NCBI RefSeq assembly: GCF_016650095.1
Contig: NZ_JAENWL010000002.1
Coordinates: forward strand, 1-49,155
Source of the DNA: Clostridium sp.
GTDB lineage: Bacteria; Bacillota; Clostridia; Clostridiales; Clostridiaceae
Reading direction: 5' to 3'
Length of the DNA: 49,155 nucleotides
Shown here: piece by piece, positions 12,420 to 27,431 of the stretch
Numbering within the stretch: the stretch's first letter is position 1
How the letters are laid out: the number at the start of each line of letters is the position of its first letter
The notes under the pieces: generated by a model
The model's database searches: none
What the model was told of the DNA's origin: nothing
The model's input: only the letters and a program-made list of their open reading frames with translations
Translations under genes and position numbers: made by a program

Positions 12420-13763
12420 TTATTTTTCCATAAATTTACTAACATCTAAAGAATAATTATCTACCATAGTTTTGGTATACCCTTCAAAATTCTTGTTGAG
12501 TTTCTTTATAACATCTTCTACCTTTTGCTGCCCACTAATAGCATCGTAGAATAATTGTTTTGTAACTCCTTGATCGTAATTTATGGAAATACTAGCATCA
12601 AATAGCTCGTTTTTAAAATTAGCCTTATTGTTATATTCTTTATATATATCATTTTTTTGAATAGCGTTTTCCATGAAAATTGGAAGTGCTTTATTAGAAG
12701 CTAATAATTGGTTATTTATTTCTTTATCTAAAAATAAATCAAAAACTTTTTTGATAGCTTCTTTGTTCTTATCTGCATTGTCTACATTTTTATTTACTAC
12801 AAGAGCAGTAGAATTCTCTGTAAAATAATAATTTTGTGAATCTTTTATATCTATCTTCGGTAGTTCAGATATACCAATAGAAAAATTAAGAGGCATAATA
12901 TTATCAAAATAGTTCTTGTCTTCAAAAGTACTGATGATCATAGCTGTCTTTTGCGCCGCAAAATCTCTTCTTAAGTCTAATCTGTTATTATTCATAAAAT
13001 CTTTATCTATTAAACCTAATGAATACATCTTACTATAAATGTTTAAAATATCCTTTGAATAGTCAAAATTATACTTTCCATTTTTATAATCCCAAAAAGT
13101 TGTATAAATACTTCCTTTATTTACACTCATTTCACCAATAGAAGTTTTGAGTTCTCCATAAGTACAAGCAGGAAATTCAAAAGGTATAACATTTGGATAA
13201 GCTTTTTTGATTTTTATTGCATAATCTAAAACTTCATCAAATGTTTTAGGTTGTGATTCTGGATCTATTCCCGCCCCTTTTAACATTTCTTTGTTCCATA
13301 CAAACTTAACATTATTACCTAATATTTTTACCCCCATTGGTTTTTTCTCATAATATAACAAATTTTCTTTACCAATTTTATCGATATCTAATCCGAACTG
13401 TTCCATATCCATTAAGCTCTCATATCTATATAATTCATAATATCCATATTGAAAAATATCGGGTTTATCCGTTGAAGCTAAAGCAGTTCTTAATAAATTA
13501 AAGTAGTCATCATTTTCCATTCTAAAAGCTATATAGATATTATCTTTATTTTCTTCATTATATCTTTCTATCTGATTTATTCTAGCCTCTGCCTCAGGCG
13601 AGTTTTTTAACCAAACACTTACTACATATTTACCTTTAGTTAAATCATTTTCATCCATTATTTTAGCTTCTTGTACTAATTTAAATCTATATGCATATGA
13701 CATTGCTACAAAAACTATCACAAGTAGTATATAGACTTTATACTTTAAAGGAAATTTCTTCAA
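12420..13763 (-). CDS. Membrane-anchored extracellular solute-binding-like protein
   Basis: A protein of about 447 residues with one N-terminal hydrophobic segment ('VYILLVIVFVAMSYAYRF') and no lipobox Cys, so it is probably tethered by an uncleaved helix. The rest resembles family-1 sugar-binding proteins: 'VVSVWLKNSPEAEARINQIERYN' at the start, 'PDIFQYGYYELYRY', 'WNKEMLKGAGIDPESQPKT' and 'TENSTALVVNKNV'. No ABC permease or ATPase gene is near. A role in binding the exported glycan or a sugar outside the cell is a guess. The track's ATG abuts AAAGAGG with no spacing, so the TTG three codons later, at nine bases, is preferred. Confidence 0.78.
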   Translation of the reverse strand: MKKFPLKYKVYILLVIVFVAMSYAYRFKLVQEAKIMDENDLTKGKYVVSVWLKNSPEAEARINQIERYNEENKDNIYIAFRMENDDYFNLLRTALASTDKPDIFQYGYYELYRYESLMDMEQFGLDIDKIGKENLLYYEKKPMGVKILGNNVKFVWNKEMLKGAGIDPESQPKTFDEVLDYAIKIKKAYPNVIPFEFPACTYGELKTSIGEMSVNKGSIYTTFWDYKNGKYNFDYSKDILNIYSKMYSLGLIDKDFMNNNRLDLRRDFAAQKTAMIISTFEDKNYFDNIMPLNFSIGISELPKIDIKDSQNYYFTENSTALVVNKNVDNADKNKEAIKKVFDLFLDKEINNQLLASNKALPIFMENAIQKNDIYKEYNNKANFKNELFDASISINYDQGVTKQLFYDAISGQQKVEDVIKKLNKNFEGYTKTMVDNYSLDVSKFMEK

Positions 13764-13821
13764 AAATATCATCCTCTTTCTTATTTTAAATCATCACTTA
13801 CAGTGATGCACTATTTACGTA

Positions 13822-15360: not shown

Positions 15361-16755
15361 TTAATTTACCTCACTATCAGCTCTCAAAATCTGAAAGAAC
15401 TGCTCCAATTGTTCCTTTTGTTTTTCATATCTAGCAGTTAAATCTTTAGCTAGCACAAATCTTCCACCTTTTTCATTTACATAATCTAGTATTTTCTCAT
15501 ACATTACTTTATATTCATTATCATAAATTACTCTTTGATGCCATAATACAGACGAAGTTCCTCCATAAAGTATTACCTCATCTATAATTTTCTTAATGCT
15601 ATACCATTTATCCTCAAAGGTAATTTGTCTTTCCATAATTATACCATCCATTATCACTAGCGGAACCTCAAAAATTGGTATTATTGCATCACTATCTATA
15701 TTATAGGGTATAAATGCTTGTGTGGTACTCGCTCTAAATCCATTTATATCTGAGTATCCTAAAGTAGAGTCACACTGTATACCTGAGTTATTTAACACTT
15801 CCCAGGTAACCGGAACATTAAATCTAAGCCAATGATTTTTGCCACTTATTATTTTAGTATTAGTAAAATTTTCTATAAATACAATTTCATCCTTAATCTT
15901 TTTCTCGTCATTATATGAAAAAAAGTTAACATGTAACCCTATATCAAAGTGAGGGTCATTTATAAGCAATCCTATCTCTTTTTTTATACTGCTCAATTCA
16001 TACCTTTTACCTAGTCTATGCTTCATTCCTACAATAAAATAAAACTCTGATTTTGCATTTTTTTGTTTTTCAATTTTTATATAGTTTTTTATTTGCAAAT
16101 GTCTATTATACAATATGTCAAATATTAGTGTTTTAGCGTTTTTAATGAAGGGAGCTTTTCTTAATAACATTTGTTTGCAATTATGTAATAGTACATATCT
16201 GTTTTTACTGTTAATATTGTCCACGTCATGATTTAGGAATATTTCAAATTGTCTTTTCTTTAACCTCAAATCCTCATTGAAATACTTGATAGCTTCATAT
16301 AGTATATGTGAATTAACATCAAAAAAAGGTATATCTATCTTTTCTACTCTATTACTATACTTACCAATAAATCTTTCCATTGAATCTTTTTTAGGTATTT
16401 CATACTCTTCTTTGCAAGATAATAAATAAAATGATAACATTATTATATCAAAGGTAAATGTAACGTTGCCATCATTTATATAAAAGGGCATTTCTATATT
16501 GTCTTTAAAAGACATGAATGTTTTACTCATGTATTTATAGAAAAATATTTTTTTTTCATCGGAACAAATTCTCTCATAAGGTATATATATATTTCCTGAT
16601 TGTTTAGGTTTAATTCCATAATATATATTCACACTATTGTCTAATGACTTAAATGAAACTTTTATCTCTTCATCATAATCTTTTGTAATATAATATATTG
16701 TATATAAAATTTTACGACTATCTTTATTTTCTTTATCTATTATAAAATTTATCAT
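15361..16755 (-). CDS. Polysaccharide-deacetylase-like protein with extended N-terminal domain
   Basis: A 464-residue protein. The N-terminal 170 residues have no motif I recognise beyond resemblance to the domain often fused to such proteins (DUF7033 type). The C-terminal part resembles a NodB-like barrel: 'FLNHDVDNINS' for the paired Asp residues, 'DIGLHVNFFSYND', 'NHWLRFNVPVTWEVL', 'GYSDINGFRAS' and 'SSVLWHQR'. No signal peptide or membrane segment is seen, so it is probably cytoplasmic and may act on sugar precursors or lipid-linked intermediates. The metal-binding set is not a textbook CE4 triad, so catalysis is uncertain. AAAGGTG precedes the ATG. Confidence 0.78.
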   Translation of the reverse strand: MINFIIDKENKDSRKILYTIYYITKDYDEEIKVSFKSLDNSVNIYYGIKPKQSGNIYIPYERICSDEKKIFFYKYMSKTFMSFKDNIEMPFYINDGNVTFTFDIIMLSFYLLSCKEEYEIPKKDSMERFIGKYSNRVEKIDIPFFDVNSHILYEAIKYFNEDLRLKKRQFEIFLNHDVDNINSKNRYVLLHNCKQMLLRKAPFIKNAKTLIFDILYNRHLQIKNYIKIEKQKNAKSEFYFIVGMKHRLGKRYELSSIKKEIGLLINDPHFDIGLHVNFFSYNDEKKIKDEIVFIENFTNTKIISGKNHWLRFNVPVTWEVLNNSGIQCDSTLGYSDINGFRASTTQAFIPYNIDSDAIIPIFEVPLVIMDGIIMERQITFEDKWYSIKKIIDEVILYGGTSSVLWHQRVIYDNEYKVMYEKILDYVNEKGGRFVLAKDLTARYEKQKEQLEQFFQILRADSEVN

Positions 16756-16758
16756 ACT

Positions 16759-17757
16759 TTACACCTTTAGAACTTTTCTTATAATATTTTTATTTTTCCG
16801 GAGTAATTTATAAGTTACGGCAAATATAAAACTACTTTTGTTCACATTATGTATTATCTTTTGGTAACCACCAAATTTTCTAAAATATTTTTCTATGTTT
16901 TTTATACTAGAACCCTCAAAATCAAATCCTTTTGAAACTTGCGCAGCAAACTTAATGCTTTCCCATAATAATAGGGTTTGCACACCACTTTTTCTATATA
17001 TAGGGTCACTTCCCCCAATAAGATAATAAGCACATTTTGAGTCATACACTATATAATTAGCTGCTAAAATATTATTATTATCATCTATTCCGAAAAGTAT
17101 CTTCCTGCAGTTTTTTGCTTTCAACTTCTCATCCATATTCCTTAAAAATTCGAAAGAGTATGGCATCTCCATACCTTGCCTTTTAAAGGTTTTTTTATTT
17201 ATCTCATAAAATTGCTCTATGCTTAGGTCTGATACTACTTTTATATTGTTTTTCACTGCTTTATTTATTGAATATTTCACATCATATTGGAAATTCGAAT
17301 ATATTTTATCTAAATCTTGTAAATCTTCAATTACATATGTATAACTAATAGCTGTGCTATATCCTTCCCAAATAAAAGGTAAAAAGTTTGTAAAATTGTA
17401 ACTAAAGTTATAATCAAACAGCCTACAGTGCTGTAGTTTTTCAATAAGTGATACTATTATTGATGTTTCTTTTGATAGCACCGTTGAATACTTAGCTTTA
17501 CTAGAGGATTTAGGTAATAAAATACCTAATTGTGGGGTTAATTTAGGATTTCTATATAACTCACCACGTGTATATGGTAAAGCAATACCGCCAATAAATT
17601 GATTGTTTTCTTCAACAACTAAAATCTTAAACTGAACACAAACAGCTTTTAACCATTGTATTTTACTAAATAAAGTTCCTTGAGGAGACTCATCCACAAA
17701 GTTATCCCATTTATAAAATTCTTCTTCATTGATATATCTGACACTAAAATTAGCCAT
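16759..17757 (-). CDS. FemAB-like GNAT acyltransferase (PF13480 type)
   Basis: A 332-residue cytoplasmic protein of the GNAT/FemAB-like fold found in many exopolysaccharide loci. 'ESPQGTLFSKIQWLKA' at the start is the usual opening, 'DVKYSINKAVKNNIKV' is the basic mid-domain helix, and 'GGSDPIYRKSGVQTLLLWESIKFA' followed by 'FDFEGSSIKNIEKYFRKFGG' is the conserved acyl-CoA or aminoacyl-donor region. It could add an acyl or aminoacyl group to a sugar; the donor is unknown. It ends three bases before the deacetylase-like gene. The start is the ATG of MANFSV, eight bases after GGAG; the track's GTG lies inside the ribosome-binding region. Confidence 0.82.
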   Translation of the reverse strand: MANFSVRYINEEEFYKWDNFVDESPQGTLFSKIQWLKAVCVQFKILVVEENNQFIGGIALPYTRGELYRNPKLTPQLGILLPKSSSKAKYSTVLSKETSIIVSLIEKLQHCRLFDYNFSYNFTNFLPFIWEGYSTAISYTYVIEDLQDLDKIYSNFQYDVKYSINKAVKNNIKVVSDLSIEQFYEINKKTFKRQGMEMPYSFEFLRNMDEKLKAKNCRKILFGIDDNNNILAANYIVYDSKCAYYLIGGSDPIYRKSGVQTLLLWESIKFAAQVSKGFDFEGSSIKNIEKYFRKFGGYQKIIHNVNKSSFIFAVTYKLLRKNKNIIRKVLKV

Positions 17758-17825
17758 TTTATTCACTCCATGTATTATTTTCCATACGGAAATTTAGAAA
17801 TAGTAACTCCAAAACAATACTTCAA

Positions 17826-18950
17826 TTATTTTTTCTTATTATTATCTTGGAGAATGTCTTTATATAAGTTAATTAAATTTATTTTTTCAGTTTCCCAAGA
17901 AAACGTAGTTTCAACTATCTTTCTATTATTTAATCCCATCTGCTTTGTATTCTCAATATTTTTTACTAAATCTTTCACTTTTTCTGCAATTTCTTCAGGT
18001 TTCTTAGGGTTTACAAATATAGCACTTTTCGCAAATACAACCATCCAATAGGGGAAATCAGACATCAAAATTGGAATTCCACATGCCATATATTCAAATG
18101 CTTTTACTGGTGAACTTTTTATATGATTAAGAGTTGGATAGAGTGTACAAAGTCCTAAATCCACACTTTTCATGTATGAATAAACTTCATTTACTGGCTT
18201 AAAACCTAGATATTTTGTATATCTCCATCCTTCTAGTCTCTCACATTCACTTTTATATTCAGGATCATCCCACTTACCTAAAATCAATAATTCTACTTCC
18301 CCATTTAAATAATTAACTGCTTGTATCAATTCCCTTATACCTCTTATTTCAGTAAGTCCTCCTGCATAAAGCATAGTAAATTTTTCGCGTTCTACTGCTA
18401 ACTGCTTGCTTTCATCTATTATAGCCATAGACGGTAAATTCCTTAATAACATAGTTCTTTTATTCATATTAAATTTCTCAACTATATCCATAGTAACGGT
18501 TACCACACCATCAAAATATCTACAAATCCATTTTTCAAAAGCATTAAATAATTTAGATACTATCCTTCTAAAAAAAAGGTTGCCAAGCCAATCTTTATTC
18601 AAAATTTGTGCTGGTACATCCTCATGTACATCATATATTACTTTTTTTCCTAATAATTTTAATCTAAGTCCTAAAAAAAGTATTTCTGGATCATGAAAAT
18701 GATATACCTCAGCGTTTACTTCTTTTGCTTTTTTAAACGCAATTCTATTTTTAAATACAAATCTATATAAACGACCACATTTCTCTGGAAGTGGAATAAT
18801 ATGAACGCCATCTATATCTTCTTCCTTGCCATGAGTGGCTATTAAATATACATCATATCCTTCTGTTGCAAGTGTTTTACATTCTTTGTGAAAAATTCTA
18901 ACATCAGCTGATGAATGAACTGTAGTAATATGACATACTTTTATAGCCAT
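17826..18950 (-). CDS. GT4-family glycosyltransferase
   Basis: A 374-residue glycosyltransferase. 'HITTVHSSADVRIFHKEC' is the start typical of a GT4 subgroup seen in capsule and EPS loci, 'YHFHDPEILFLGL' and 'YDVHEDVP' mark the acceptor domain, and 'TMLYAGGLTEIRGI' opens the donor domain. 'SSPVKAFEYMACGIPILMSDFP' is the E-x7-E region. The start is the ATG of MAIKVCHIT, eight bases after GGAGG; the track start is within that signal. It follows the candidate nonulosonate transferase by 35 bases, and together they may extend the same repeat. Confidence 0.9.
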   Translation of the reverse strand: MAIKVCHITTVHSSADVRIFHKECKTLATEGYDVYLIATHGKEEDIDGVHIIPLPEKCGRLYRFVFKNRIAFKKAKEVNAEVYHFHDPEILFLGLRLKLLGKKVIYDVHEDVPAQILNKDWLGNLFFRRIVSKLFNAFEKWICRYFDGVVTVTMDIVEKFNMNKRTMLLRNLPSMAIIDESKQLAVEREKFTMLYAGGLTEIRGIRELIQAVNYLNGEVELLILGKWDDPEYKSECERLEGWRYTKYLGFKPVNEVYSYMKSVDLGLCTLYPTLNHIKSSPVKAFEYMACGIPILMSDFPYWMVVFAKSAIFVNPKKPEEIAEKVKDLVKNIENTKQMGLNNRKIVETTFSWETEKINLINLYKDILQDNNKKK

Positions 18951-18985
18951 ACTTAAATCCTCCATAATCCTTTAATAAAACCCTA

Positions 18986-20428
18986 CTATTTACTCAAAAA
19001 TAATTTATTAGCATCTTTAATACTCCTAATTAATTTACTTTTAATCATTTCATAGCTATCTATATTAAAGTAATCTTTTCTAAATTTTTCAAATAATATT
19101 TTAGTTTGATTATCATTTATAACATTTATTAATTCTTCAGCGGAATTTACAAAACATACACGATATTCTTTTAACTCTTCTACGTTTGTCCATCCTGAAA
19201 ACTTCACCACAAATGTTGGAATATTACATACCATAGCTTCATAATGACAAGTTGAAAAACAGGACAAATGTACTTTACTTTTTCTCAAACAAGTATAAAT
19301 AGTTCCCGTTGTCTCAAAACTCACTCTAGAATTTGCTATAATATCTTTATATAATTCCTTATATTCCATAATCTCATTTGGATGTAACTTTATTAAAATT
19401 CTAGTATTATAATCCAATTCTAATAATTCTTTTATAAAATAACACCACTGCTTAGAATATACAGCACCTTGAGTCGTAATTAAAAAATCAAATTTCACTT
19501 CTTCTTTACTGGCGATATTTTCCATAAGTTGTTCATATAGATACGGATACCCATATTCAACAATATTTAATTTGATTTTAGGATTTATTTTTATAATAAC
19601 ATCCTTAAAGTGAGCTCCAAAAACACAAAAATAATCTGGTATGGGATCTCTGTCTCTAATTTTATCATTTAAAACATATCCGTAGTGCTTATCGCTTATT
19701 AATCCATGCTGAAATTCAACTACCTTTATATTTAGTATCTTTGCAGCATATATAAAAATAATATGACTAGGACTATAAAAACACTGCATATATAGTACCT
19801 TAGGTTTTACTTTTTTTAATATATTTAGTGCGTATTTATATCCTTTTAGTAGCACTGATGTATTTTCCAATACTATGTGTGTAATAGGTATATCAATCTT
19901 GTATTTTTCTAAAATATAAGATTGAACTTGATCGAATGTGTCTTGTATATGTTTTACTTCACTTTTGTTAATGAAAAGATAATAAAACCTACGATATAGT
20001 AAATTTAATAACGAAAGATTTGATAAGTTATAACTATTCTTAGTATATCTATTAGTCCTGTATCCCTCGCCACTTAGCGTCTCTAGAATACCATAGGACA
20101 AAGAATCATATTTCCCAATATAATCAAATATGTGATCAAACCCGTTGTCCCTTCTAGATGCCGTATCTGATAAACACAAAATGTCTAATTGCTTATATTT
20201 GTTTCCTTTAATATTAATACTTTTTATATATTTTAAAGCTGTAAAATATCTTTTTAGTTTTGATATTACATTTGTCTCGTTACAATTTGGATCTTTTAGT
20301 CTTAATATATCTATAGTTTCAAATATTTTTCTCCTAGATACCCACCAAATATAAAATCCTCTAATCTCTATATCAAACAACTTAAATCGTTCTTCAATAT
20401 CTTTCATAATATCAGTTGTTTGTATCAT
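18986..20428 (-). CDS. GT-B-type glycosyltransferase with HP and Ser/Thr motifs (candidate nonulosonate transferase)
   Basis: A 480-residue soluble protein with no signal peptide. I do not recognise an exact family. 'VLYMQCFYSPSHIIFIYAAK', then 'VEFQHGLISDKHYGY', recalls GT-B capsule enzymes (KpsC/KpsS and CDP-glycerol transferase styles). 'ILIKLHPNE' is an HP motif and 'LSCFSTCHYEAM' a Ser/Thr motif, the order seen in bacterial sialyl- and Kdo-transferases, where they bind the CMP part of the donor. It is the first gene after the legionaminate set, so transfer of a CMP-activated nonulosonate is plausible but unproven. AAGGAG precedes the ATG. Confidence 0.65.
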   Translation of the reverse strand: MIQTTDIMKDIEERFKLFDIEIRGFYIWWVSRRKIFETIDILRLKDPNCNETNVISKLKRYFTALKYIKSINIKGNKYKQLDILCLSDTASRRDNGFDHIFDYIGKYDSLSYGILETLSGEGYRTNRYTKNSYNLSNLSLLNLLYRRFYYLFINKSEVKHIQDTFDQVQSYILEKYKIDIPITHIVLENTSVLLKGYKYALNILKKVKPKVLYMQCFYSPSHIIFIYAAKILNIKVVEFQHGLISDKHYGYVLNDKIRDRDPIPDYFCVFGAHFKDVIIKINPKIKLNIVEYGYPYLYEQLMENIASKEEVKFDFLITTQGAVYSKQWCYFIKELLELDYNTRILIKLHPNEIMEYKELYKDIIANSRVSFETTGTIYTCLRKSKVHLSCFSTCHYEAMVCNIPTFVVKFSGWTNVEELKEYRVCFVNSAEELINVINDNQTKILFEKFRKDYFNIDSYEMIKSKLIRSIKDANKLFLSK

Positions 20429-20530: not shown

Positions 20531-21640
20531 TTATCTCTTAATTTGATTTTCTATAATTACTTTACAGACCTTTTTAATATCTTCTAATTGCAAGCCAACA
20601 GAGCTTGGTAAGTTAATACCTTTTTCATATAATTCCTTTGTAATACTTAAGTCACCATGTCTGTATTCTTTATATGGAGGCATATCATGTATAGGCATAA
20701 AGAAAGTTCTTGCTTCTATTTTTTCTTCATTTAATTTTTGTATAAGAGCATCACGAGTTATGCCATACTCTTCTTCAACTAAAATTGAGTAAAGCCAAAA
20801 ACAATTTTCTACATTCTGTTTTTCTACAGGTAATGTAATTCCTTTAACCTTGCCTAACAATTCATTATAATAAATTGCATTCTCTCTTTTAATCTTTAAA
20901 TAGTCTCCAATATTTTCAAGTTGAGCTACTCCAAAAGCAGCAAGAAGATTTGGCATTCTGAAATTATATCCTACCTCTGGATGGTAGAAAGCTTTATTTT
21001 CAGTAACTACTTTTGCTTGAGTAGATAAGAATTTTGCCCTGGTACCAAACTCTAGATTGTTAGTTACAAGCATTCCACCTGCTCCAGTAGTTATAATTTT
21101 ATTTCCATTAAAGCTAAAACAACCAATATGCCCTATAGTGCCAACCATGTTGCCTTTGTAAATTGATCCTAGTGCTTCGGTTGCATCTTCTATAACATAT
21201 AAATTATGTTTTTGAGCTATTTCCATTACCCTATCCATATCCGCAGGATGACCATAAATATGTACTGGCATTATTGCCTTTGTTTTAGGTGTTATTAATT
21301 CTTCTATCTTTTCTGCATCCATAACAAATGTATCTCTACATACATCTACAAATATAGGGGTTGCACCTACGTATTTTAAAGTGTTTATTGGTGATATAAA
21401 TGTTAAAGATGGAACTATAACTTCATCATCTTTCCCTATTCCTAATGTCAATAACGCTAACTGAAGAGCTGCCGTACCATTATTTGTAACTACTGCACTT
21501 TTACTACCTACATATTCACTAAATCTTTCTTCAAATAAATTAACATAACTTCCTACTGAAGATACCCAATTAGTATCTATGCAGTCTTTAACATATTTCA
21601 ATTCATTACCTCTTATTTCTGGTATACATAATGGTATCAT
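20531..21640 (-). CDS. legC: LegC-like PLP aminotransferase (DegT/DnrJ/EryC1 family)
   Basis: A 369-residue PLP enzyme that would aminate C4 of the 4-keto-6-deoxy-HexNAc nucleotide sugar made by LegB. 'NWVSSVGSYVNLFEERF' is the LegC-type N-terminus, 'TNNGTAALQLAL' and 'IEDATEALGS' bind PLP, and 'FSFNGNKIITTGAGGM' holds the Schiff-base Lys. The sequence looks like the NeuNAc/legionaminate aminotransferases rather than PglE or WbpE, but this distinction needs a phylogeny. It is the only PLP sugar aminotransferase in the window. AGGAGG lies eight bases before the ATG. It follows legB by 39 bases. Confidence 0.88.
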   Translation of the reverse strand: MIPLCIPEIRGNELKYVKDCIDTNWVSSVGSYVNLFEERFSEYVGSKSAVVTNNGTAALQLALLTLGIGKDDEVIVPSLTFISPINTLKYVGATPIFVDVCRDTFVMDAEKIEELITPKTKAIMPVHIYGHPADMDRVMEIAQKHNLYVIEDATEALGSIYKGNMVGTIGHIGCFSFNGNKIITTGAGGMLVTNNLEFGTRAKFLSTQAKVVTENKAFYHPEVGYNFRMPNLLAAFGVAQLENIGDYLKIKRENAIYYNELLGKVKGITLPVEKQNVENCFWLYSILVEEEYGITRDALIQKLNEEKIEARTFFMPIHDMPPYKEYRHGDLSITKELYEKGINLPSSVGLQLEDIKKVCKVIIENQIKR

Positions 21641-21679: not shown

Positions 21680-22672
21680 TTAAACGTTATATATGTCTGT
21701 TTTAAAATATTGCATATTATTTTTTATCCACTCAACTGTTGCGCAAAGACCACTATCTATAGTGTAATTTGGCTTCCAACCTGTTAATTCTTTTATTTTG
21801 GTATTATCAGCCCATAATCTGTTAACTTCACTGTTTTCCGGTCTTATTCGCTCATCATCGCAAAGAATCTTTACATCCTTATCTATTATGTTTACTATTT
21901 TTTTAACTGTGTCCCCTATTGTTATCTCATAGTTTGAACCGGCATTTATAACTTCACCAATAGTTCTCTCACTTTCTGCTACCTTTATAAATGCTTCGGC
22001 AGTATCTTTAACAAAATTAAAGTCTCTAGTTGGAGTTAAACTTCCAAGCTTGATTTCTGTTTTTCCTGCGAGTATCTGTGATATTATTGTTGGAATTACA
22101 GCTCTTGCTGATTGTCTTGGTCCATATGTATTAAATGGTCTTATAGTAGCTATAGGCATATTAAAACTTTTATAGTAACTTTCTGCCATCTTGTCTGCTC
22201 CTATTTTTGATGCTGAATATGGCGATTGACCCTGCATTGGATGTTTTTCATCAATTGGTACATAAAGTGCTGTGCCATAAGTTTCAGACGTTGAGGTATG
22301 CACAATTTTTTCAACCCCATATTCTCTACATGCTTCTAAAACATTAGTAGTACCTTCTATATTTGTTCTTACATATGCCATAGGTGATAAATAAGAATAC
22401 GGAATTGCAATAAGTGCCGCTAGATGAAATACTACTTCTTGCCCCTTTAGAATTCTTTTCATCCCATCATACTCTCTTATGTCCCCAGTAACAACTTTAA
22501 TGCTTTCGCGAGTTTTCTTATCGAATGTATCAATCCATCCCCAATTATTAAAAGAATTATATTGAGCGAGGGCTGTAACATCTGCACCAAGTTCCACTAA
22601 TCTTTCCGTTAAATGACTTCCTATAAATCCTTCTGCCCCTGTAATTAAAACTTTTTTGCCTTGCCAATTCAT
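21680..22672 (-). CDS. legB: LegB-like NAD-dependent nucleotide-sugar 4,6-dehydratase
   Basis: A 330-residue extended short-chain dehydrogenase/reductase. 'VLITGAEGFIGSHL' binds NAD, 'STSETYGTALYVPIDE' carries the Thr/Glu active-site region, 'SPYSASKIGADK' holds the catalytic Tyr and Lys, and 'RPFNTYGPRQSARAVIPT' binds the nucleotide. In Campylobacter the GDP-GlcNAc form of this enzyme starts legionaminate synthesis. The ORF track start is 23 codons early and creates a false overlap with ptmE; the ATG of MNWQGKK has GGGAG eight bases before it, leaving a 16-base gap. Confidence 0.9.
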   Translation of the reverse strand: MNWQGKKVLITGAEGFIGSHLTERLVELGADVTALAQYNSFNNWGWIDTFDKKTRESIKVVTGDIREYDGMKRILKGQEVVFHLAALIAIPYSYLSPMAYVRTNIEGTTNVLEACREYGVEKIVHTSTSETYGTALYVPIDEKHPMQGQSPYSASKIGADKMAESYYKSFNMPIATIRPFNTYGPRQSARAVIPTIISQILAGKTEIKLGSLTPTRDFNFVKDTAEAFIKVAESERTIGEVINAGSNYEITIGDTVKKIVNIIDKDVKILCDDERIRPENSEVNRLWADNTKIKELTGWKPNYTIDSGLCATVEWIKNNMQYFKTDIYNV

Positions 22673-22688
22673 TGCATCTACTCCCTTT

Positions 22689-23744
22689 TTATACTTTAAA
22701 AAACTTGTGAATATCCCTGTTGGCCTTTGTATAATCTTCAATTTGTCCTATATCCTTCCAATATTCTGTTATCTCATATATACCAGGTTTATCTTCATTA
22801 TTAATTACATCTTCTATTAAATCAGTCATATTATAAACTTCGCCTTGCTGTATATATTTTATAACTTCAGGATTAAGAGCATATACTCCGCCATTTATAT
22901 GAAATTTATATGTAGGCTTTTCTTCTAAAGACTCTATAATCATATTATCAGTAACTAATACACCATAAGGAACATTAATTTCATAATTTCTAACGCCAAC
23001 AGTTACATTAAACTTATTTTCAATGTGATGATTTAAAAATTTATCAAAATCAATTCCAGTTAGTATATCTCCATTTATAACAATAAAAGGTTGATTTAAT
23101 TTTTCGTTTGCTAAGGCTATTGAGCCTGCTGTACCCAGTCTTTTAGTTTCCTTAATGTATTCTATATTTACGCCGAATTCTATTCCAGTTTTAAAATATT
23201 CCTCTATTATTTCTCCTTTATAATTAAGAGAAATAATAAAGTTTCTAAAACCATATTCTTTAAATTGTTCAATTATAAGCTCCAATATAGGTTTATCCCC
23301 AATTGTTAGCATAGGTTTAGGTACTGTTTCGGTTAAGGGCCTTAATCTAGTTCCCAGTCCACCCGCTAAAATAAAGATAATGTTATCCTTTTTATCATAA
23401 GAAATTATATCATCTAGAAAATATAAATCTATAAGTTTTTTATTTTTATCAATAACAGGTACTTGTCTTATCTTATTGCTTAGCATATACTCTTTCGCTT
23501 TCTTTTTACTATACTCTTCTGTAACAAATTTAAATCTTTTAAAGTATGTGCTCTCAATACCATCATATATACTTAGCCCTTTAAGAATAGCCCGTCTAAT
23601 ATCACCATCAGTAATAGTTCCCACGAGTTCATTGTTTTCATTTACAACTAGTGCTCCTCCGGTTAAATTTTTATTTATAACCACCATTGCTTCTTTTATT
23701 GTAGAATTTTCTCCTATACAATAATTATCAATTGGAAATTTCAT
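22689..23744 (-). CDS. ptmE: PtmE-like CBS-domain sugar-1-phosphate nucleotidyltransferase
   Basis: A 351-residue fusion. Residues about 1-115 form two CBS repeats ('VGTITDGDIRRAIL' and 'RQVPVIDKNKKLIDLYFL'), which in other proteins bind adenosyl ligands. Residues about 120-351 form a nucleotidyltransferase with 'LAGGLGTRLRPLTETVPKPML' style activation loop and 'INGDILTGIDF'. The Campylobacter homologue PtmE makes GDP-glucosamine for legionaminic acid; here the base is inferred. CBS regulation would let energy state gate nonulosonate synthesis. It starts four bases after legH; GAAGGTG precedes the ATG. Confidence 0.87.
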   Translation of the reverse strand: MKFPIDNYCIGENSTIKEAMVVINKNLTGGALVVNENNELVGTITDGDIRRAILKGLSIYDGIESTYFKRFKFVTEEYSKKKAKEYMLSNKIRQVPVIDKNKKLIDLYFLDDIISYDKKDNIIFILAGGLGTRLRPLTETVPKPMLTIGDKPILELIIEQFKEYGFRNFIISLNYKGEIIEEYFKTGIEFGVNIEYIKETKRLGTAGSIALANEKLNQPFIVINGDILTGIDFDKFLNHHIENKFNVTVGVRNYEINVPYGVLVTDNMIIESLEEKPTYKFHINGGVYALNPEVIKYIQQGEVYNMTDLIEDVINNEDKPGIYEITEYWKDIGQIEDYTKANRDIHKFFKV

Positions 23745-23748
23745 AATG

Positions 23749-24396
23749 TCACCTTCGCTTTATAATTTTTGATGGAATTCCTACAGCAACTACATTATCT
23801 ACTATATTTTCAATAACCACAGCTCCAGCCCCTATAATTACGTTATTGCCTATGTGTACTGATTGAATTATAGAGCTTCCCATACCTACATGGGTATCAT
23901 GGCCTACAATCACCCCTCCAGCTATACAAGCCTTAGGTGATATATGGGTATTCCTTTGCACTTTGCAATCATGCTCGATTACAGCACCAGTGTTTACTAT
24001 ACAATTTTCACCTATGAGCGCTCCAGGATTAATTATTGCTCCCTGCATTACACAAGTCCCTTCTGCAATAAAGGCATAAGGCGAAACCATAGCATTCTTA
24101 TGAATAAGAACTGGTGAATTAAAGCCTATAGTCTTTAATTTATTATATAGCTTATCACGAGCCAAAATATTTTGGAGTGCCCCAACACATACAAAGGCGT
24201 TCTTTACTCCTGTGTTATATAATTCTTTTAAAATACTATCATCACCTATAATAGGAATATCTAATACAAACTCTTTTTCACTAGGGTCATAACTTTTATC
24301 TGTTATACCCACAATCTCATATTTAGAATTACTTTTTATTATATCTATAATAACCTTGCAATGACCACCCGCACCTACAAGAACAATTTTTTCCAT
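23749..24396 (-). CDS. legH: LegH/NeuD/PglD-family sugar O/N-acyltransferase
   Basis: A 215-residue two-part protein. 'LVGAGGHCKVIIDII' is the N-terminal nucleotide-sugar-binding Rossmann-like domain of the PglD/NeuD family, and the rest is a left-handed beta-helix of hexapeptide repeats ending 'IGAGAVVIENIVDNVVAVGIPSKIIKRR'. Family members acetylate the 4-amino group of a UDP/GDP-4-amino sugar. 'NTGAVIEHDCKVQ' carries the catalytic His-type position. Its place inside the Leg run fits LegH, giving the diacetamido-trideoxy sugar used by LegG. NeuD-type O-acetylation of the finished nonulosonate is an alternative. GGGGTGAG precedes the ATG. Confidence 0.85.
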   Translation of the reverse strand: MEKIVLVGAGGHCKVIIDIIKSNSKYEIVGITDKSYDPSEKEFVLDIPIIGDDSILKELYNTGVKNAFVCVGALQNILARDKLYNKLKTIGFNSPVLIHKNAMVSPYAFIAEGTCVMQGAIINPGALIGENCIVNTGAVIEHDCKVQRNTHISPKACIAGGVIVGHDTHVGMGSSIIQSVHIGNNVIIGAGAVVIENIVDNVVAVGIPSKIIKRR

Positions 24397-24451: not shown

Positions 24452-25600
24452 CTAGTAAGTTATTTTCTTTTGTATAAGTTCCCTATCTATCAATACATTG
24501 CTTAAAATTTCCGCTATTTTCCCACTGGCATTGCCATCCCCATAAGGATTTGTGCAGTTTTCTAATTGTTTTTTAAAACTCTCGTCATCTATTGCCTTAT
24601 TAATACCGATCTTTACAGCTTCTTTTCCATAAGGCACATCAATTATATTACATGCTCTTAGTCTTCCTTCTTGCCTTGATCCTATGTTTACTACAGGTAG
24701 TTTAAAGCTAGGTGCTTCAATTATACCTGAGGATGAATTTCCTATCATTACCGCGGCTATTTCTAAAAAGCTTAGGTACTCTACTTGACTTAAATTTTTA
24801 AATACCTTTAAGAATGGGTATTTAGCTCTATATTCTTCAATAATCCTTATAATTTCACGTCCCCCATTATCACTGTTAGGATATGAAACTATAGTTTGAT
24901 ACCCAAGTTCTACAACCGCATCTAGTGTTTCTCTTATTTGCCATCCCACCATATCACGCTCTGTAGTTACTGGATGCTGAGTTAGTAGAAATATCTTATC
25001 ATCTTTTAAATTGAATCTTTTGAGCATTTCAATTCTTGTTAAATAGTTTGTTCTCTTAATGTAATCAAGACCTGGTGCTCCTACTACAAAAATATTTTCT
25101 CCCTTCTCACCTAATTTAATAATTCTTTTCATACTATCCTCATTGGCTGGAAAATGAATATGAGAAAGCTTAGTTATAGCGTGTCTTACAGATTCATCTA
25201 CTGTTCCAGTTACTTCCCCTCCATGAATATGAGCTACAGGAATATTCATGTGAATAGCTGCGGTTGCTGCCGCTAGCATTTCTCCTCTATCTCCTAATAT
25301 TAACAAAATATCTGGCTTAATTCGATCAAAACACTGGGCCATGCTTATAATTGAAAGTCCTATAGATTTAGCCATAGCAGTCCCTGTATCAGAAGCTAAT
25401 ATAGTTTCAAACTTATCTGCTATATCAAATCCATCTCTTTCTATTTCATTTATAGTCATTCCATATTCAGGACATAAATGCATTCCACAGACAATAAGTT
25501 TAAGATCCAATGATTCATGTTTTTCAATTTCTTTAAGAACATGATAAAATATGCCATAATCCGCTCTTGTACCTGTTATTACTGCTATTTTTCTTTTCAT
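24452..25600 (-). CDS. legG: LegG/NeuC-like hydrolysing nucleotide-sugar 2-epimerase
   Basis: A 382-residue enzyme of the hydrolysing 2-epimerase group, which releases the free 2-epimerised hexose for condensation with phosphoenolpyruvate. 'AVITGTRADYGIFYHVL' is the NeuC-type start, different from the 'GARPQFIK' of WecB. 'ILGDRGEMLAAATAA', 'HIHGGEVTGTVDESVRHAITKL' and 'NSSSGIIEAPSF' are the remaining blocks. The track start is 12 codons early; AGGAGG directly serves the ATG of MKRKIAV. The 90-base gap to legI holds two short palindromes. Leg versus NeuAc specificity rests on the presence of legB and legC. Confidence 0.9.
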   Translation of the reverse strand: MKRKIAVITGTRADYGIFYHVLKEIEKHESLDLKLIVCGMHLCPEYGMTINEIERDGFDIADKFETILASDTGTAMAKSIGLSIISMAQCFDRIKPDILLILGDRGEMLAAATAAIHMNIPVAHIHGGEVTGTVDESVRHAITKLSHIHFPANEDSMKRIIKLGEKGENIFVVGAPGLDYIKRTNYLTRIEMLKRFNLKDDKIFLLTQHPVTTERDMVGWQIRETLDAVVELGYQTIVSYPNSDNGGREIIRIIEEYRAKYPFLKVFKNLSQVEYLSFLEIAAVMIGNSSSGIIEAPSFKLPVVNIGSRQEGRLRACNIIDVPYGKEAVKIGINKAIDDESFKKQLENCTNPYGDGNASGKIAEILSNVLIDRELIQKKITY

Positions 25601-25671
25601 ATTTATCCTCCTACTAGCGCTCCTCGGGAATAGCAATTAACAATTGTTATTTTCCTATTCTATTTAAACGT

Positions 25672-25691
25672 AAAATGATTTAAATCATTTT
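25672..25691. repeat. Perfect 20-bp AT palindrome at the end of legI
   Basis: AAAATGATTT is followed directly by AAATCATTTT, a perfect palindrome that touches the legI stop codon. Reading the minus strand it ends in TTTT. It may slow or partly stop transcription between legI and legG, or may be chance in AT-rich DNA. Confidence 0.4.
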
Positions 25692-26734
25692 TATTCCAGC
25701 ATATTTAAGGCTATTTGCTCATCCATCTTTATATCTCTGTTAGTTTTTTTACCAATAACATCCATATAATATTTGGGTAAAAGCCCGTTTCCTGGTCTTT
25801 TGTAATCCAAGTCCATTAAGTTTATACTCTCCCCTGCTTTTATATATCTAGCAGCTACTATACTTTTTCTTGCTGCCTTCATAGTATCTATTTCACTAGC
25901 ATCATACCTCTTGATTCCAGTTCCAAGTGCCATTTCTACATTTCTAATTGCTACAACCATCTCTTTTAATTCTAGAGGACAGAGAGATGCTTTATGATCC
26001 GGGCCTTCCATATTTTTATCGATAGTAAAATGCTTTTCAATTATATTTCCTCCCATAGCCACTGCAGCTATGGGTATAGTTATCCCCTCAGTGTGATCAG
26101 AATATCCGGACACAGTTTTAAAAGCATTTTTTATAGTATTCATGGCATTTAAATTAACGCTATGTAATTTAGCTGGATAATTCGAAGTACAGTGAAGCAC
26201 CGCTACTTTTTTATTTCCTAAAGCATAAATTGCATTGATTCCTTCTTCAATTTCTGCAAGTGTCGCCATACCAGAAGATAAAATTATAGGTTTGTTAAAT
26301 AATGCTATATGTTCTAAAAAGGGAATGTTAGTTAAATCTCCTGAACTTATTTTAAAAGCCTCTATGCCTATAGATGATAAAAAATTAGCACTTTCAAAAT
26401 CAAAAGGGGTAGATAAAAACATAATTCCCATATGTCTACAATATTCTTGTATTTCTATGAAGTCTCCCTGTGATAGTTCTAGTTTCTTTAACATATTAAA
26501 CTGAGAGGAAGTATGGCCTATGTTATCCTTTTGATAATCAGCCATTTCTGCATATCCAGTAACTAATTTTTCAGTAATAAATGTTTGAAATTTTATGGCA
26601 TCAACTCCAGCAAATACAGCATTTTCAACTAGCTTTTTCGCTATGTTTATGTCTCCATTATGGTTAACTCCAGCCTCGGCTATAATAAAGGTAGGATTTC
26701 CAACACCTATAACTTTATTCCCTATCTTAAACAT
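25691..26734 (-). CDS. legI: LegI/NeuB-family nonulosonate (legionaminic-type) synthase
   Basis: A 347-residue enzyme that condenses a free 2-acetamido (or diacetamido) mannose-type sugar with phosphoenolpyruvate. 'IIAEAGVNHNGDINIAKKLV' is the NeuB opening, 'DAIKFQTF', 'STPFDFESANFL', 'KISSGDLTNIPFL' and 'GYSDHTEGI' complete the TIM barrel, and residues about 285-347 form an antifreeze-like SAF domain that caps the active site. NeuB, LegI and PseI cannot be separated with certainty by eye, but the LegB/LegC/LegG context favours legionaminate. The first 8 bases overlap the end of legF, indicating translational coupling. AAAGGAG precedes the ATG. Confidence 0.92.
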   Translation of the reverse strand: MFKIGNKVIGVGNPTFIIAEAGVNHNGDINIAKKLVENAVFAGVDAIKFQTFITEKLVTGYAEMADYQKDNIGHTSSQFNMLKKLELSQGDFIEIQEYCRHMGIMFLSTPFDFESANFLSSIGIEAFKISSGDLTNIPFLEHIALFNKPIILSSGMATLAEIEEGINAIYALGNKKVAVLHCTSNYPAKLHSVNLNAMNTIKNAFKTVSGYSDHTEGITIPIAAVAMGGNIIEKHFTIDKNMEGPDHKASLCPLELKEMVVAIRNVEMALGTGIKRYDASEIDTMKAARKSIVAARYIKAGESINLMDLDYKRPGNGLLPKYYMDVIGKKTNRDIKMDEQIALNMLE

Positions 26735-27431
26735 GCTTACTCTCCTTTATTATCAGTTCTACAAGTCTTGCATCGAGCATTGTATCAATGTCTATTGAGC
26801 TTTCCTTGTCCATTACATAAGGAATTGTATTTTCATCAACAAACTTTTTTTTCTGTACTATCATGTCACTTGAATTAATATATAACGCACCATTAAATAT
26901 GTAAAAAGCAGGTAAGTCTTGGCGCCGAAGATTTGTGCCCTCAAAGCTTATGACTTCCTTTAACTTTTCGTTTTCTATACTCCTCATAAGTACAGGATTT
27001 TCATCAACTTCGCATACACTTACTAAGGAAGATTTATTTGATTCAATAAGTTTTTCTATTGCTTTATCAAGATGTTCAACTGTTCTTAATGGAGAGGTTG
27101 GCTGTAATAATATTACATAGTCAAAACTTATATTCTTATTTTTATAAAAATCAATTGTATGCATCACAACATCTATAGATTTCACATTATCTTTTGATAA
27201 TTCTGCTGGTCTTAAAAAAGGAACCTTAGCACCACTCTGCTGTGCTATAACCTTTATGATATCACTATCCGTTGATACCATTATTTCATCTATATATTTT
27301 GATTTTTTTGCCGCTTCTATTGTATACGCTATAAGTGGTTTACCACATATAGGCATGATATTCTTATTCGGTATCCCCTTTGAACCACCTCTTGCTGGAA
27401 TAATAGCAAGAAACTTTTTATTTTTAAACAT
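26727..27431 (-). CDS. legF: LegF/NeuA-family CMP-nonulosonate cytidylyltransferase
   Basis: A 234-residue enzyme that activates the nonulosonate with CTP. 'AIIPARGGSKGIPNKNI' is the CTP-binding loop, 'PLIAYTIEAAKKS', 'VSTDSDIIKVIAQQSGA' and 'LLQPTSPLRT' are classic CMP-sugar synthetase motifs, and 'DIDTMLDARLVE' near the C-terminus carries metal-binding Asp residues. It is the first gene of the Leg run and has its own likely promoter. AAAGGGG precedes the ATG. The enzyme product, CMP-legionaminate or similar, would be the donor for a transferase downstream. Confidence 0.92.
   Translation of the reverse strand: MFKNKKFLAIIPARGGSKGIPNKNIMPICGKPLIAYTIEAAKKSKYIDEIMVSTDSDIIKVIAQQSGAKVPFLRPAELSKDNVKSIDVVMHTIDFYKNKNISFDYVILLQPTSPLRTVEHLDKAIEKLIESNKSSLVSVCEVDENPVLMRSIENEKLKEVISFEGTNLRRQDLPAFYIFNGALYINSSDMIVQKKKFVDENTIPYVMDKESSIDIDTMLDARLVELIIKESKHV

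Follow-up and report, generated by a model that had tools for sequence, protein, structure and literature searches.

A candidate GT-B CMP-legionaminate transferase encoded directly after a complete legionaminate gene set in Clostridium

Introduction

Two proteins of T. forsythia, GtfS and TFUB4_00887, are genetically shown transferases of pseudaminic acid (Pse) and legionaminic acid (Leg) (PMC6388019, PMC6120980), and both have been described as TagB-domain proteins (PMC7439481); strain 92A2 of this species is a Leg strain (PMC6120980). SpsB of B. subtilis is TagB-like as well, carries HP motifs and is encoded beside CMP-Leg genes, but its deletion does not abolish Leg transfer (PMC7439481). 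CMP-sialyl and CMP-Kdo transferases have in common a (K/R)xHP motif, in which the basic residue contacts the cytosine and the proline stacks (PMC12887879), and the histidine of the HP pair protonates the phosphate leaving group (PMC9587256). A further sialyltransferase motif, D/E-D/E-G, has also been defined (PMC2169525).

Here we analyse a stretch of 49,155 nucleotides from Clostridium sp. (contig NZ_JAENWL010000002.1; hereafter the window), in which a preliminary description had singled out an unassigned protein following the Leg genes as one that may represent a new type of nonulosonate transferase. Family tests and gene neighbourhoods support that suggestion, with the activity read from sequence and gene context, and we consider it quite likely that the protein is a GT-B CMP-legionaminate transferase that places Leg on the surface polysaccharide of the locus.

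Results

The candidate gene (18986..20428, minus strand) is a single intact ORF of 480 aa with an ATG start and an AAGGAG ribosome-binding site upstream, and the ORF, a structural model and the family together mark its product as a candidate CMP-legionaminate transferase of GT-B fold. It is the eighth gene of the same-strand run LegF-LegI-LegG-LegH-PtmE-LegB-LegC-candidate, and a complete CMP-legionaminate gene set thus lies directly upstream of it. This set, all on the minus strand, comprises the LegF CMP-legionaminate synthetase (26727..27431; PF02348 and TIGR03584), the LegI/NeuB synthase (25691..26734; TIGR03569 above cut-off), which is the sole true NeuB of the genome, the LegG/NeuC epimerase (24452..25636; TIGR03568 above cut-off), a LegH/NeuD-type acetyltransferase (23749..24396; TIGR03570 above cut-off), a PtmE-like protein with CBS and nucleotidyltransferase parts (22689..23744), the LegB 4,6-dehydratase (21680..22741; TIGR04180 above cut-off) and the LegC aminotransferase (20531..21640; TIGR04181 above cut-off). 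The next gene after the candidate, beginning 20 bp past it, encodes an ordinary GT4 glycosyltransferase (17826..18965, minus strand; PF00534 etc.). Flippases, polymerases, GT4 enzymes, TagA/WecG and a priming transferase are also encoded in the polysaccharide part of the window. The genome itself, which is 94% complete, yielded no match to PF01973 (Maf) and none to PF04464 (CDP-glycerol transferase).

Some other features of the window deserve mention in their own right. A VimE-like deacetylase (NF053580, E 1.5e-23) adjoins a FemAB/VimA-like transferase at 15361-17766, and the window further holds a UDP-GlcNAc 3-dehydrogenase-like gene (28403) and a WecC-type dehydrogenase (29596); together these resemble a portion of a Wbp/Vim-type route for aminoacylated uronic acid, here in an organism outside Bacteroidota. 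Inside the polysaccharide operon, 12420-13772 encodes an extracellular solute-binding protein (PF01547), at a position kept in two relatives.

All three motifs named in the preliminary description are present in the protein: EFQHG at residues 238-242 (19703..19717, minus strand), KLHP at residues 347-350 (19379..19390, minus strand) and CFST at residues 390-393, the last as the start of CFSTCHYEA (residues 390-398; 19235..19261, minus strand), which we read as a Ser/Thr phosphate-site motif followed by the GT-B glutamate. KLHP is the sole HP in the 480 residues, fits (K/R)xHP and is the expected CMP site, following the published meaning of this motif (PMC12887879). Five residues, E238, Q240, H241, G242 and S392, do not vary among 22 diverse homologues, of which 21 keep P350, 21 keep T393 and 12 keep H349, so that conservation of the three motifs exceeds chance. 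We take S392/T393 and E397 to correspond to the usual phosphate and ribose sites of GT-B enzymes. The D/E-D/E-G motif of GT38/GT52/GT80 sialyltransferases is absent from the query protein. The HP and Ser/Thr motifs had been read as a sign of a CMP-sugar transferase, and they are indeed there, but they are not specific to such enzymes: CDP-glycerol transferases carry both, and those of sister species show WHG / KLHP / YSS in the same layout as the query. The motifs alone therefore prove no CMP-nonulosonate transfer.

The reported absence of a GT4 signature was borne out, as a Pfam search of the query matched no family (best PF13439, E 0.18) and gave no Glycos_transf_1 match. The label "unassigned" thus holds with respect to Pfam, but not with respect to NCBIfam, where we find a remote tie to NF046086, the "BFO_1060 family glycosyltransferase". 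This profile matches the query with 41.8 bits (E 7.5e-11; curated cut-off 200 bits) and 15 of 22 family members; the 72% homologue (L011) gave no match to it. The tie is strong by profile-profile comparison: HHalign aligned the candidate family with BFO_1060-like proteins over 273 columns in both halves (score 181, probability 99.5) and scored 158 against a 570-586-aa transferase of sister species, compared with 62 for CDP-glycerol transferases, 62 for epimerases and 50 for GT4. The best reading of these sequence comparisons is that the candidate family is distantly related to BFO_1060.

Profile searches also agree with a place outside the established families, since PF04464 matches neither the query nor any of the 22 family members, and the GT52, GT80, GT38 and GT42 Pfam models match none of them at E up to 1. 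PF05159 (GT99/GT107) gave no match to the query and a match at E 0.059 to one member of the 22, and two members gave weak PF02350 matches. Against the PDB, a phmmer search with the single query sequence found nothing, and the best matches of the family profile were KpsC and WbbB, both CMP-Kdo transferases, at weak values (E 0.015-0.04) confined to the C-terminal half.

A genome scan with a 5-member alignment recovered 21 named loci ranging from Clostridium to Oceanobacillus, Aliivibrio, Kuenenia, Aquimarina and other Bacteroidota, and relatives were found in Bacillota, Bacteroidota, Vibrionaceae, Planctomycetota and others. The family is rare in the sampled surveys of class and phylum, with matches in 8 of 391 genomes (single sequence) and 29 of 399 (profile); one of the eight single-sequence matches (L019) proved false, its locus encoding GatB but no protein of the family. 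Among 198 Bacteroidia genomes none had an NF046086 member above cut-off, and most of the BFO_1060-like proteins examined in Bacteroidia sit near NeuB.

The AlphaFold2 model, built on the 22-sequence alignment, has a GT-B fold (pLDDT 88, pTM 0.87). In Foldseek the best 50 PDB matches are all GT-B, with TagF first and then UDP-GlcNAc 2-epimerases, at TM about 0.4-0.5. Because any GT-B protein resembles the others at TM about 0.5, this settles the fold class and not the choice of donor, and these nearest folds give no pointer to a CMP-nonulosonate donor. On the donor we regard the profile match to KpsC and WbbB as the more telling result. The leading place of TagF, together with an HG, HP and Ser/Thr layout that true PF04464 proteins share, could suggest a CDP-glycerol-type transferase, which would move a polyol phosphate and also release CMP. 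We judge this very improbable, given that PF04464 recognizes none of the 22 family members and nothing in the genome of the window, and that the HHalign score to true CDP-glycerol transferases is as low as that to epimerases. NeuC and WecB are among the Foldseek matches as well, and these, with the weak PF02350 matches, are what could be said for an epimerase-like or otherwise modifying Leg-pathway enzyme of GT-B fold. Such a role is hardly credible, as LegG and WecB are already encoded in the locus and homologues adjoin complete pathways that include NeuC.

The association with nonulosonate genes extends across the family. The order of Leg genes and transferase is conserved in Clostridium sp. 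CS001 (72%), C. tepidiprofundi (49%) and C. bovifaecis (47%), and NeuB and/or CMP-synthetase lies within about 10 kb of 29 of the 45 homologues with neighbourhoods examined. The preliminary description had raised the question whether homologues always co-occur with nonulosonate genes, and homologues that keep the HP motif are almost always found beside nonulosonate or CMP-sugar synthase genes: NeuB/CMP-synthetase is within about 10 kb for 22 of 26 members with (K/R)xHP vs 7 of 19 without it (p 0.0015, with related loci taken as independent in all neighbourhood counts). For at least three of the four exceptions with HP (L075, L096, L099) the contig is short or ends close by, and Leg-like genes are visible there. 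In the Bacillota sample, NeuB occurs within 12 kb of 11 of the 16 family matches placed by coordinate, compared with 1 of 150 priming transferases (PF02397), the latter being the 150 best-scoring matches rather than a random draw and standing for polysaccharide loci (Fisher p 1.1e-12; 6e-9 inside NeuB-positive genomes). True NeuB (E below 1e-50) is present in 122 of the 399 Bacillota genomes sampled and in 12 of the 12 with a family match at about 1e-11 or better.

Members lacking the HP histidine (L107-L112, L100-L101, L105-L106) form a branch with xPR or similar in its place, in which EFQHG and the Ser/Thr motif are retained. Part of this branch belongs to flavobacterial polysaccharide loci that are small and lack NeuB within 10 kb, and L107-L111 likewise have no NeuB within that distance; in C. 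zeae and C. folliculivorans, which are exceptions among the His-less members, NeuB is about 13 kb off. One HP member (L015:11075-13864) has a PseF-like cytidylyltransferase, an HMGL-like aldolase and KdsD as neighbours; this is a different ulosonate route, possibly with an unusual CMP-ulosonate pathway. In C. bovifaecis (L094) LegC and PtmE each read as two ORFs next to an intact transferase, reflecting either assembly frameshift errors or decaying genes.

Proximity could also mean no more than a shared polysaccharide, the candidate acting in this locus as a glycosyltransferase for a UDP- or GDP-sugar and Leg being moved by one of the GT4 enzymes or by a gene elsewhere. SpsB is a precedent for this (PMC7439481), and a canonical GT-B fold near UDP-binding enzymes in Foldseek and the occurrence of His-less members where no NeuB is close are in keeping with it. 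Nevertheless, the family's link to NeuB is much tighter than that of a general polysaccharide gene and goes with the presence of the HP histidine, and we regard this explanation as unlikely. We also know of no GT4 enzymes that use CMP-nonulosonates.

Sister species of the genus have Leg genes about 77-95% identical to those of the window. In these species LegC is followed by a flippase and a different transferase of 570-586 aa, which occupies the slot of the candidate, also matches NF046086 and scores above the PF04464 cut-off in three of the four tested; this last result could again be taken to favour a CDP-glycerol-type enzyme. Two members of a single supergroup thus occupy this position, as would be expected if the enzyme that uses CMP-Leg is exchanged in a serotype-like manner. 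The sister Clostridium genomes with Leg genes close to those of the window and a transferase slot taken by a flippase and a 572-586-aa enzyme are L035-L040, and in L037 the replacing transferase is in tandem duplicate, with another cytidylyltransferase and two Gfo/Idh genes between LegB and PtmE.

Discussion

The function that we propose would follow from the ORF, the GT-B model, the motifs, the position in the operon, the family-wide association with NeuB and the fact that no Maf or CDP-glycerol transferase was detected. The seven genes just upstream would make the donor, CMP-legionaminic acid, and the candidate would transfer the sugar from it, with release of CMP, to the repeat unit under assembly for the surface polysaccharide of the locus. 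If the solved CMP-ulosonate transferases are a guide, K347 would read the cytosine and P350 stack on it, H349 would protonate the CMP phosphate and S392/T393 would hold the phosphate. The invariant E238 and H241 may lie on the acceptor side; as they are placed like the HG histidine of CDP-glycerol transferases, they are candidates for acceptor activation.

We are further inclined, with somewhat less confidence, to see here a new family of CMP-nonulosonate transferases, defined by EFQHG, (K/R)xHP and ST..EA and spread over the groups named above, in which the His-less branch has moved to another donor. If true, many orphan Leg/Pse loci, Gram-positive ones included, would gain the transferase that they have been missing. 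With its clear motifs the compact family supplies candidates for testing by the dozen, and donor choice has a built-in test in the branch that has naturally lost the HP histidine.

Among known systems, the BFO_1060 family (NF046086) resembles the candidate in its GT-B fold, the strong profile-profile match and relatives near NeuB, and differs in that the candidate reaches 41.8 bits where the curated cut-off is 200. BFO gene numbers come from T. forsythia strain 92A2, and from the Leg genotype of this strain (PMC6120980) and the gene numbering, BFO_1060 is probably the Leg/Pse transferase of this species (GtfS / TFUB4_00887). With BFO_1049 as a neighbouring GT (PMC7468200), BFO_1060 falls near the place of gtfS. 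KpsC (GT107) and WbbB (GT99), retaining beta-Kdo transferases, use CMP-ulosonate donors, as proposed for the candidate, and are like it in (K/R)xHP and in a C-terminal half with Ser/Thr, but the similarity is weak and limited to that half, and the query has no PF05159 match. The pseudaminyltransferase KpsS1 (GT118), which we liken by its description, has a CMP-ulosonate donor like the one proposed here (PMC12887879). GT38, GT52, GT80 and GT42 sialyltransferases share the HP motif, and the first three also the GT-B fold, whereas the candidate has no Pfam match to them and no D/E-D/E-G. TagF/TagB (PF04464) provide the nearest solved fold, the HG/HP/Ser-Thr layout and a CMP leaving group, but differ in family, with none detected in the genome, and in neighbourhood. 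The circumstantial case for SpsB, again likened by description, was similar, and SpsB is not needed for Leg transfer (PMC7439481); what is added here beyond that case is a family-wide association, a genome in which neither Maf nor PF04464 was detected, and a supergroup link to BFO_1060.
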